A stretch of DNA of 64,000 bases, taken from positions 248,001 to 312,000 of the forward strand of contig JAUHZU010000002.1 in the NCBI GenBank assembly GCA_030425705.1, read 5' to 3'. The DNA comes from Phycisphaerae bacterium. Its GTDB lineage: Bacteria; Planctomycetota; Phycisphaerae; Phycisphaerales; Phycisphaeraceae. Below the pieces are notes generated by a model that did not search any database, was not told the DNA's origin, and was given only the letters and a program-made list of their open reading frames with translations. The translations under genes and the position numbers were made by a program. Numbering within the stretch: position 1 is the first letter of the stretch; every line of letters begins with the position of its first letter. This document shows, one piece after another, positions 9,425-16,065 of this stretch.

Positions 9425-9431
9425 CGCGGAG

Positions 9432-10550
9432 CTACTCCCCGAGCGCCGGCGGCATCGGCACGCCCTCGCCCAGCAGTGCCAGCACCGACATCGCCGTGCC
9501 GAAGTTTGCCGACCGTTCAAAGACGCGGTCGTTCCACGTGCCGTCGTCGCTTAGGGTCCGCAGCAGCTTTTCGAGCAGGCGTAGATTCTCGTCCCGACGC
9601 TGCGCTTCGGGGAGCACGGCGATGGCCTGGGCGAGGTAGCGGTGGCCGTAGTAGAAGTAGTAGGGCGCGACGCCGTAGGGCGCGACGTGTGTGCCGTGCT
9701 GGGCGCGGCGTTTTTCAAGCTCGTCCCAGTGCTCGTGGAACGCCTCGACCTGTGCGGCCAGGGCCTCTTCTGGCACCGGGTCGCCCAGCAGCCCGAGCGT
9801 CACGTCGCTGACCGGCGACCGGGCGGTCGCGCCCGGCAGGAGCGGCCGACGGGCCCGGCCGCTGTACTCGTACGCGCCGTCGTTGCCGCGGCTGGCGCGC
9901 AGGGCCTCCGCCGCCCGCTCGAGCATGTCGTGATCCACCGATTCGCCCTGCGCCTCCGCCCACAGCAGCGCCTGCACCGCGGGGGATGTGACGAACGGCG
10001 CGTGGGCGCGCTTGCTGGCGTAGTTCCAGCCGCCGCCGGGCACTTCCTGGATGGCGAGCGCTTCCACCAGCCGAGGGACCCAGCGGTCGATCGACTCGGT
10101 GTGTGGCCCGGTGCGCTGCGCGGCCCGCAGGCGGCAGAAGTAATCCAGGGCGTAGATGTGCCCCCAGACGCGCACGTCGTACGCGTCTTCATCGGACGCC
10201 GCCATGAGTGGGTGGTCCAGCGCCTCAAGGATGAGCGCGGTGCCGCGTTCCAGGGCCCCGGCCGCCTCGGCGTCGTCGTCCTCCGCGGCGTAGAGCAGCG
10301 CGGTGCAGACAATGGCCGTGCCCCCGACCCGGTAGCCGACCGGGATCTGGCCGCGCACGCGGTATACGCCTTCGTACGGCCAGGCACCGTCGTCATCCTG
10401 CATCGCGACCAGGCGATCTACCGCGGTCGCGGTGAGTGACTCGGCGGTGGGTGCCGCGTCCTGCGCCGACGCCACGGGTGCGGCAATAACCCCGGAGAGG
10501 AACACGCCCAAGAGAAAGTGAGCAAGTCCGGGGTGCGTTGGTGTTTTCAT
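9432..10550 (-). CDS. Secreted protein with squalene-cyclase/prenyltransferase-like repeats
   Basis: A 372-residue protein with a signal peptide (MKTPTHPGLAHFLLGVFLSG, cleavage after VASAQD-like sequence). The mature part has alpha/alpha-barrel repeats of the terpene cyclase/prenyltransferase type: AMQDDDGAWPYEG, SRGNDGAYEYSG and LSDDGTWNDR. The DxDD acid motif of true squalene-hopene cyclases is not seen, so a cyclase reaction is not supported. Similar proteins are common and uncharacterised in planctomycetes. The ATG at 10550 has an AGGAG site; an upstream in-frame ATG at 10580 would put 10 residues before the signal peptide. It is followed closely by the nitrilase-family gene. Confidence 0.75.
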   Translation of the reverse strand: MKTPTHPGLAHFLLGVFLSGVIAAPVASAQDAAPTAESLTATAVDRLVAMQDDDGAWPYEGVYRVRGQIPVGYRVGGTAIVCTALLYAAEDDDAEAAGALERGTALILEALDHPLMAASDEDAYDVRVWGHIYALDYFCRLRAAQRTGPHTESIDRWVPRLVEALAIQEVPGGGWNYASKRAHAPFVTSPAVQALLWAEAQGESVDHDMLERAAEALRASRGNDGAYEYSGRARRPLLPGATARSPVSDVTLGLLGDPVPEEALAAQVEAFHEHWDELEKRRAQHGTHVAPYGVAPYYFYYGHRYLAQAIAVLPEAQRRDENLRLLEKLLRTLSDDGTWNDRVFERSANFGTAMSVLALLGEGVPMPPALGE

Positions 10551-14179: not shown

Positions 14180-14396
14180 GGCGCGTCGGGCGGCGGGCAC
14201 AAACGGGTGGACCCCGGCCGTCTCTGCCCGGTGGGCCGCGAACGCGGCTAGGGGGACAAAACCGGGGTTTCGGCCGCAAAAAGCGATTCTTCTTGCGGCC
14301 CCGGGGGCGCGGATATACGATAAATGATTGAACAGGTGGCTGTTGTGTGCGCCTGCGCCGCTGGATCCGACCGACCCACCAAGGGGATTTTGACAG

Positions 14397-15353
14397 ATGA
14401 AAAAGACCAACCGGACCACCGCCTTTGTGGCCGCCGCCCTGATCGGGGTGCCGGCATTGCTTACCGCTCAAACCGCGGCGGGCCAGTGATCGTCGGGCGC
14501 CTGCACAGGTGTGCAGCAGAACATTACCTCGGCGATGGGCACCGTCCGCAGCGCGGACCTGGGGACGGCCTACAACCGGGTGCAGGAAGTCATCGCCGAC
14601 GCACAGGAGAAGAACCTCTCGCGCAGCCGCGATATCCGCGGGCCGCTGGCCGAGTTGGTGGGGCTGCTGGAGCAGCGTGCGATGGATGCGCTGGATTCCG
14701 CGAAGCAGGACTACTTCGCCGGCAACCACGAAGCAGCGCTGGACGAGTTCCGGGCGCTGGCCGCGCTCGACGGGCTCCGCGCCGCACGCGAAGCGACCGG
14801 CGAGCTGCGCAAGGAAGACGACCGGGCCGAGTGGCGCACGCTCAGCGAAACCGCGACCGCCCAGATGCAAGCCGCGGCCTTCGGGGACTTGCGGACCACC
14901 CTGCGTGACCTCACCCGTCTCGCTCGGCGGACGGATTACGACGATCAAACCGATGCGCTGGTCGCGTCCTTCGGCGACACGGTGCAGTCGCACGTCGACC
15001 GTGCCGAGCAGGCTGTCGCCAACGAGGACTACGACGCGGCGTACGGCGTGCTGCTGGAGGTGTCGCGTCTGTCCGAGCTGCGCGAGCAGGCCCACGCGGC
15101 CCGGCAACTGCTGCGGGAACACGCGAACACCCCGGGTATGAAGCAGGCCGAGCGCGAGTATGAGTCGGCCGACGCCCTGTCGCAGATCCGCGCCGACCTG
15201 GCCGAGGCCGAGGGCCAACGCAACGCCGACGCCGTCCGCCAGCAGGCCCAGCGCAAGCTCGAACAGCTTGTGGCTCAGTACGAAGGCACCCGCGCGGCCG
15301 AACAGGCGCAGCGGCTCGCCGACGAACTCAACAAACAACTCGCCGCCGGCTGA
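14397..15353 (+). CDS. Exported helical protein interrupted by in-frame UGA (candidate selenoprotein or broken gene)
   Basis: From the ATG at 14397, with AGGGG about 10 bases upstream, the frame encodes a clear signal peptide (MKKTNRTTAFVAAALIGVPA, then LLTAQTAAGQ). Codon 31 is TGA (14487-14489). The same frame then continues without a break for 287 codons: SSGACTGVQQNI, followed by an Ala/Glu/Arg-rich all-helical, coiled-coil-prone protein. The TGA sits five residues before a Cys, giving a U/C-x4-C spacing. A 6-bp hairpin begins 11 bases after the TGA. If the TGA stops translation, the mature part could start only at GTG 14511 and would not be exported. A decayed gene, a sequencing error or selenocysteine insertion are all possible. 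No family is recognised. The gene has its own terminator. Confidence 0.65.
14501..14516 (+). other. SECIS-like hairpin after an in-frame UGA
   Basis: CTGCAC / GTGCAG form a perfect 6-bp stem with the four-base loop AGGT. The loop begins 17 bases after the UGA at 14487 and has G at its second position. These features fall within the published criteria for bacterial SECIS elements (small apical loop, G among its first two bases, loop 16-37 bases from the UGA). A short hairpin in GC-rich DNA can also occur by chance. Confidence 0.35.
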
Positions 15354-15379: not shown

Positions 15380-15408
15380 CAGCCCGGCCCCACGGCCGGG
15401 CTGTTTTT
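15380..15408 (+). terminator. Intrinsic terminator
   Basis: A perfect 10-bp stem CAGCCCGGCC / GGCCGGGCTG with loop CCAC and TTTTT. It lies 27 bases after the stop codon of the UGA-containing gene. A strong terminator in the expected place suggests the transcription unit is still maintained. Confidence 0.9.
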
Positions 15409-15531: not shown

Positions 15532-16065
15532 ATGACCTACCACACAGACACCACGCCAACACCGACCGGCCGAGCCCGATACCGCGGGTGGGTCGTGGCG
15601 TTGATTGTGGTCGGCGTGGCCTGGGCGGGGGCGGTCGCGCTGCGGGCGGGGACCGCGCCGGTGCACCTGGACGGCTGGCAACCCGGGCTGGACGCGGGGA
15701 TGGCCGAGGCCGAGGCGCAGGGCCGGCCGATGCTCCTGATGTTCACCGCCGACTGGTGCGGCCCCTGTCAGACGCTGAAGAAGGACGTGATCCAGACCCC
15801 CGAGGTCCGTGCGGCGATCGACGCCGGCTTCGTGCCGGTGGTCGTCGACCTGACCGACCAGTCGTCGAACAACCCGGGCGTGGCCGCGGTCCAGCGCTAC
15901 GGCGTGCGCGGCATCCCGATGCTGGTCCTGACCGATGCCCGGGGCCGCCCGCTCCCCGGCACGATCGCCTACCCCGATTTCGCACACAGCCCGCCGCGGT
16001 TCTCGCAATCGCCCGAGGGTTTCCTCGCTTGGCTCGCCAGCGCGGAGCCCGCCGACGCGGAATGA
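15532..16065 (+). CDS. Membrane-anchored thioredoxin-domain protein
   Basis: A 177-residue protein with one N-terminal membrane anchor (about residues 20-38, WVVALIVVGVAWAGAVAL) and a periplasmic thioredoxin fold. The active site is WCGPC (Cys76 and Cys79) in FTADWCGPCQTLKKDV. The cis-proline loop is RGIPMLVLTD. It resembles DsbD-gamma/thioredoxin_7-type domains that pass reducing or oxidising equivalents to exported proteins, for example during cytochrome c maturation. The upstream gene is separated by a terminator, so the two are separate units. Confidence 0.85.
   Translation: MTYHTDTTPTPTGRARYRGWVVALIVVGVAWAGAVALRAGTAPVHLDGWQPGLDAGMAEAEAQGRPMLLMFTADWCGPCQTLKKDVIQTPEVRAAIDAGFVPVVVDLTDQSSNNPGVAAVQRYGVRGIPMLVLTDARGRPLPGTIAYPDFAHSPPRFSQSPEGFLAWLASAEPADAE

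Follow-up and report, generated by a model that had tools for sequence, protein, structure and literature searches.

The locus lies in a window of 64,000 nucleotides (the whole stretch of DNA that was analysed) on contig C16 of genome G000, and all features of the locus are on the forward strand. An ATG at 14397–14399, preceded by a probable ribosome-binding site recognised by eye (AAGGGG, 14381–14386, 10 nt upstream), opens a frame of 30 codons that ends in a TGA at 14487–14489. Beyond it, the same frame stays open for 287 codons and ends in a second TGA, at 15351–15353. An intrinsic terminator follows at 15380–15408 (CAGCCCGGCC-CCAC-GGCCGGGCTG-TTTTT), consisting of a perfect 10-bp GC-rich inverted repeat and a run of five T. 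The initial annotation had proposed that the internal UGA encodes selenocysteine (Sec), and its account of the start codon, ribosome site, 30-codon leader, TGA, 287 further codons and strong terminator is exact on the sequence. With UGA31, its sole in-frame stop, read through, the stretch 14397–15353 would be one gene of 318 codons.

Codons 1–30 (14397–14486) are predicted to encode a signal peptide. Three Lys or Arg residues precede a hydrophobic core, whose best 11-residue Kyte–Doolittle mean is 2.34, at residue 11, and residues 1–29 have pLDDT values below 50 in an AlphaFold2 model. The next cysteine was said to follow UGA31 by five residues, and codon 36 (14502–14504) is indeed Cys; it is conserved in all three homologues found. 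Sec31 and Cys36 would be the only Sec or Cys residues of the protein. A hairpin resembling a bacterial selenocysteine insertion element (bSECIS), CTGCAC-AGGT-GTGCAG, lies at 14501–14516, and a gene for a thioredoxin-like protein is found at 15532–16065, beyond the terminator.

Base composition gives a probability of about 0.004 for 287 codons without a stop. The open frame is cheap evidence, since the DNA is GC-rich and the other two reading frames of the same stretch hold only 1 and 2 stops.

All four genes of the Sec pathway, for which a genome search had been proposed, are present in G000 above curated cut-offs, grouped at 658–666 kb of contig C14. SelB scores 309.5 bits against a cut-off of 242.25, or 345.2 bits together with its in-frame neighbour; SelA scores 520 bits and SelD 362 bits. 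The tRNA-Sec (selC) scores 64.9 bits against a cut-off of 47 and has the anticodon TCA according to ARAGORN. The selD gene itself contains an in-frame TGA, in the motif CGGU, so that SelD would carry Sec. Between selD and selB lies a gene for a putative selenate ABC binding protein (TIGR04553, 297.9 bits; cut-off 250). The region L047 (G000:C14:656000–668500) thus reads as one selenium locus, with Sec-SelD, a putative selenate ABC transporter (PhnCDE-like), SelB, SelA and tRNA-Sec.

The genome also encodes a recognised selenoprotein with an in-frame TGA, VPGUxxT type 2 (360 bits, cut-off 275). From the pathway, Sec-SelD and this protein, we conclude that the cell is equipped for selenoproteins and encodes others. 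The VPGUxxT type 2 gene (L060:1351–2508; G000:C3, about 140.4–141.6 kb) has a second in-frame TGA (U205) in the context MFUFWEGQ. This context is MsrA-like (match to PMSR with E 4e-4 and 21.0 bits, where the cut-off is 23.7), and the product is possibly a double-Sec protein. Its counterpart in a second species of the genus has a frame broken after the first Sec.

A search with the read-through protein gave matches in 3 of 101 genomes, its own included. The other two belong to the second species of the genus (G001), with 57% identity and one TGA inside the gene, and to a third species (G003), with 41% identity and no stop. Full-length matches were confined to these three genomes in a profile search of 51 family genomes at E<=1, where 11 gave a match. 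In draws of 397 genomes from the class and 392 from the phylum, each of which left out some genus members, 14 had a match at E<=0.01 and 8 at E<=0.001, respectively; full-length matches were found only in G000 and G001 in the first draw and only in G000 in the second. When 84,980 species genomes were scanned with a pattern, a single locus came out, on a Phycisphaeraceae MAG contig (JAHQVV010000079.1).

The initial annotation had named an alignment of homologues at codon 31 as informative, and it bears out the proposal. The sequences read AAGQ-U-SSGACTG in G000, ASGG-U-GSSGVCTG in G001 and LAKS-C-KSGSCGG in G003, so that the column holds TGA in two species and Cys in the third; these two TGA and one Cys are all the sequences known at this position. 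The number of residues between Sec and the downstream Cys is not the same in G000 and G001, the difference being one. In G001 the equivalents of Sec31 and Cys36 are likewise the only such residues, and the G003 protein has one extra Cys, at 303.

The distribution of the decoding machinery follows the same pattern. SelB is over the cut-off in 6 of 13 genomes searched, namely G000, G001 and four more distant ones (G058, G210, G253 and G342), and is not over it in the genus members G002, G003 and G004. For the tRNA-Sec, G000 and G001 exceed the cut-off, and G002, G003, G004 and G007 do not. Given that the G003 assembly is 89% and the G004 assembly 70% complete, the absences in these two are strong, not absolute. 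The UGA is thus kept in a relative with the pathway, and Cys stands at its place in a relative with neither SelB nor tRNA-Sec over the cut-off.

Beyond the UGA, G000 and G001 diverge by 28, 27 and 54% at codon positions 1, 2 and 3 (286 codons), which indicates purifying selection on the protein. The gene therefore has a single UGA within an otherwise open and selected frame. The contrary signs that the initial annotation had listed for the genome and the homologues are absent: the pathway was found, the codon-31 column has no ordinary residue other than Cys, and the frames have no other stops.

Seen in one genome alone, the TGA would look like a lone stop in an open frame, and a nonsense mutation, or a base error turning TGC or TGG into TGA, in the gene of an ordinary exported protein had been offered as the prosaic reading. 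Two observations practically exclude this reading: the TGA recurs in a second species, whose protein is 57% identical and whose genome is a single contig, with no other stop in the frames; and the relative with neither SelB nor tRNA-Sec over the cut-off has the Cys form.

It is just as improbable that the UGA is read as another amino acid, be it Trp or the result of near-cognate suppression. The residue in the homologue is Cys and not Trp, the genome holds a tRNA-Sec with anticodon TCA along with the rest of the Sec pathway, and TGA is also the terminal stop of this very gene. Nor do we give much credit to a division of the locus into a short leader peptide that stops at the TGA and a downstream protein with a start codon of its own, such as GTG 14511. 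A frame of 280 amino acids does begin there, and the G001 frame offers the same. The downstream protein would, however, have no signal peptide; the leader is kept in frame between G000 and G001, with the same residue at 67% of 27 aligned codons; and in G003 an uninterrupted ORF covers both leader and body, with Cys in place of the UGA. We conclude that 14397–15353 is very probably a selenoprotein gene in which UGA31 (14487–14489) is decoded as Sec, a reading made from the sequences of two relatives and of the host genome.

The hairpin contributes less. Published bSECIS constraints require a loop of 3–9 nt, a stem of 4–16 bp and a distance of 16–37 nt from the UGA (PMC13188914), as well as G in the first two loop bases and a minimum free energy of at most -7.5 (PMC13188914, legend to Fig. 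2). We applied them in a purpose-written script rather than with bSECISearch. As the initial annotation had claimed, the loop begins 17 nt past the UGA and has G as its second base, and the hairpin fits the constraints, with a 6-bp stem, the loop AGGT and -7.8 kcal/mol. The G001 hairpin also fits (20 nt, 7 bp, loop GGGC, -9.7 kcal/mol); the stem CTGCAC/GTGCAG is identical in the two species and the loop is changed. No hairpin passing the strict test was found in the Cys homologue of G003, a gene that would need none.

Taken alone, the hairpin is weak evidence. The same test is passed by 61 of the 1329 TGA triplets in the 64,000-nt window (both strands, any frame), and by 524 of 5000 synonymous re-codings of the G000 stretch and 653 of 5000 of the G001 stretch. 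The 56-nt fold at UGA31 is no better than that of shuffled sequences (z +0.49), and looser local folding of the G000 sequence favours a different hairpin, of -7.9 kcal/mol, whose loop is 13 nt from the UGA. The strict test found nothing after the UGA of the VPGUxxT genes in G000 or G001, and the loop of the selD hairpin is only 14 nt from its UGA. The test thus discriminates poorly in this genome, and we use the hairpin as supporting evidence only. A search of 14300–14700 against Rfam gave three matches, all below gathering scores and judged to be chance. It is the comparison with relatives that lifts the proposed reading of UGA31 above chance.

The protein was modelled with AlphaFold2 on the three-row alignment, with Sec entered as Cys. 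The model is an all-helical solenoid with no strands (mean pLDDT 88.2, pTM 0.72), whose helices span residues 35–317 (14499–15350). The first helix comprises residues 35–52. Sec31 is placed just before it, where a predicted disordered stretch ends, and the first turn of the helix, at the start of the predicted rigid solenoid, contains Cys36.

No model of Pfam or of NCBIfam release 20.0 exceeds its cut-off for this protein, and neither collection indicates a thioredoxin domain; the modelled fold consists of helices only. The best hit of a profile search against PDB sequences has E 0.62, and Foldseek gave no match at E<=0.001 (best E 0.017). VIA-align Z values reach 8.9, which is within the range that the tool's own note states for helical repeats. 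The remaining matches are weak, among them the fold match to BamD (3qky, E 0.088) and the Pfam model TPR_20 (E 0.077, in one of the three family members).

The C-terminal half is similar to helical segments of planctomycete thioredoxin-like proteins. Weak matches of the family profile elsewhere in the phylum often fall in such segments of exported proteins. We examined 18 proteins matched by the family profile (7 from the phylum draw, 11 from the class draw). A Pfam domain of the thioredoxin fold is present in 9 of them at E<=0.01; only four of these (L026, L052, L056 and L057) pass the Pfam gathering score. L027 becomes the tenth thioredoxin-fold protein once its TGA is read through, giving a Thioredoxin_7 domain with the motif UGPC. 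In L056 the matched part is N-terminal to the thioredoxin-fold domain and not after it. The other eight matched proteins include an esterase-like protein, a histidine kinase and a cyclophilin.

In hhalign comparisons, the three-member family aligned with three thioredoxin-like proteins at a probability of 95.9 and E 6e-9 (columns 182–312). Against six single sequences, five alignments had E values of 4e-6 to 4e-5 and the sixth, with L062, an E of 0.08, which we count as no match; six reversed controls gave E 0.04–0.74. The targets were chosen from the profile search of the same family, so that the relation between the helical parts is not fully independent evidence. The protein looks like the helical tail of a thioredoxin-like protein joined to a short Sec–Cys segment, without the thioredoxin domain.

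Several sequences met in these searches are further apparent selenoproteins: L027:835–1707, L062:997–2034 and L066:1453 onward (G210, same phylum). L027 is the UGPC Thioredoxin_7 protein, with a helical tail. L062 is a TlpA-like protein with the motif LGUPAC and a helical tail, which matches VPGUxxT type 1 (NF041382) at tail positions 172–346, scoring 29 bits where the cut-off is 350; for the UGA31 protein of G000 (P0001), the match to NF041382 is not significant (10.7 bits, E 0.23). L066 has the motif RUVPUASC, with two in-frame TGA.

The thioredoxin-like protein encoded downstream (15532–16065) has a WCGPC motif, a Thioredoxin_7 domain (Pfam, E 7e-20) and, by eye, an N-terminal membrane anchor. 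Its gene is syntenic in G001, and in both genomes a gene named by eye as a Gfo/Idh-type oxidoreductase also lies downstream. The terminator after the selenoprotein gene suggests that the thioredoxin-like gene is transcribed separately. We regard its product as a candidate partner of the selenoprotein. A fixed partnership was considered and rejected: relatives of the thioredoxin occur in G002 and G004, in which no homologue of the selenoprotein was found (G002 gave only a partial match to its profile, E 0.14), and G003, the genome with the Cys form of the protein, yielded none at E<=1e-20. The G001 copy of the thioredoxin-like gene (L046, about 9430–10010) changes frame close to the membrane anchor, through an apparent frameshift that is either real or an assembly error, and a second G001 gene, L061, is also split.

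The surroundings of the Cys gene in G003 (L031:2745–7994) are of another kind. The gene starts 152 bp 3' of a gene for a DtxR/MntR-like regulator, and close by are genes that look like those of a metal ABC transporter, all named by eye. This neighbourhood is a hint of a metal link.

Taken together, these features lead us to propose the following mechanism. SelB and Sec-tRNA-Sec would recode UGA31, directed by the hairpin just downstream, to give a protein of 318 residues. The signal peptide would direct its export, and cleavage shortly before Sec31 would place this residue within the first few of the mature protein. A lipoprotein with Cys or Sec as the acylated +1 residue was considered and rejected. 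A lipobox ends in [GAS]-C, and the residues before Sec or Cys (AGQ, SGG and AKS) form, by eye, no lipobox.

As the sole Sec and Cys residues, Sec31 and Cys36 would most likely form either a reversible selenenylsulfide at the mobile N-terminus or a joint soft-metal site. If they form a selenenylsulfide, the solenoid could act as a docking scaffold, and some periplasmic thioredoxin-like protein could service the Sec–Cys pair. That the two residues instead bind a soft metal or selenium, and are not a redox couple, seems rather unlikely to us; this alternative shares the Sec reading with the main explanation, and the odds of the two overlap. The variable Sec–Cys spacing would suit a flexible chelate, and the regulator and transporter genes beside the G003 gene point the same way. 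Against it stand the neighbourhood of the gene in G000 and G001, which differs in that genes for a thioredoxin-like protein and an oxidoreductase lie downstream, and the likeness of the C-terminal half to the helical parts of thioredoxin-like proteins.

On balance, a role as a periplasmic selenol/thiol redox protein is the putative assignment, somewhat favoured by this evidence. More tentatively, the protein may represent a new architecture, in which a bare Sec-x4-5-Cys segment at the N-terminus replaces the thioredoxin domain of a protein with a helical tail, and the exported helical scaffold, itself lacking a redox fold, serves as a swinging selenenylsulfide carrier.

The initial annotation spoke of a new type of selenoprotein, which is fair in the sense of a new family; the decoding mechanism is not new. 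None of the 119 prokaryotic families and subfamilies in Table 1 of the 2026 inventory (PMC13188914) is identifiable with this protein, as far as its rows allow: several give no motif and permit no comparison, and the families of Haft and Tolstoy 2025 were compared by their rows in the same table. UxxxxC does not occur among the motifs that the table gives, and the motif of TsoB is UxxxxU (PMC13188914). Selenoproteins have been reported in two planctomycetes (PMC4807772), and the available text of the deep-Sep paper (PMC12013277) nowhere uses the word 'planctomycete'. A literature search by title and abstract returned no paper pointing to the UGA31 family, and the secreted protein is probably undescribed. 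Automatic annotation would probably yield a 30-residue fragment and a truncated protein; with the gene split at UGA31, the real product is likely to be missed.

The family is apparently additional to the 119 of the inventory, to the extent that its table describes them (PMC13188914). Its Sec would stand outside known redox folds, at the N-terminal end of a secreted protein, which suggests that the use of selenium by planctomycetes reaches proteins not predicted by homology lists. The Sec and Cys forms inside one genus offer a natural comparison for the benefit of selenium.

With the catalogued prokaryotic selenoproteins, as summarised in the inventory, the family shares a UGA with a bSECIS-like hairpin, a Sec near a Cys, and a Cys homologue in a species with no Sec pathway over the cut-off (PMC13188914). 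The likeness to TPR-like and BamD-like proteins is that of a predicted all-helical repeat solenoid with low-level similarity and no clearly significant match. Planctomycete thioredoxin-like and TlpA-like proteins, including VPGUxxT type 1, have a comparable helical C-terminal part, are likewise apparently exported and, in some cases, have an in-frame TGA in the redox motif (UGPC in L027, LGUPAC in L062). In contrast to them, the UGA31 protein has no thioredoxin domain, and its Sec would directly follow the signal peptide, with Cys five residues further on. Mammalian thioredoxin reductase has a C-terminal Sec arm. If the swinging Sec–Cys carrier proposed here is true, its logic would be comparable to that of this arm.
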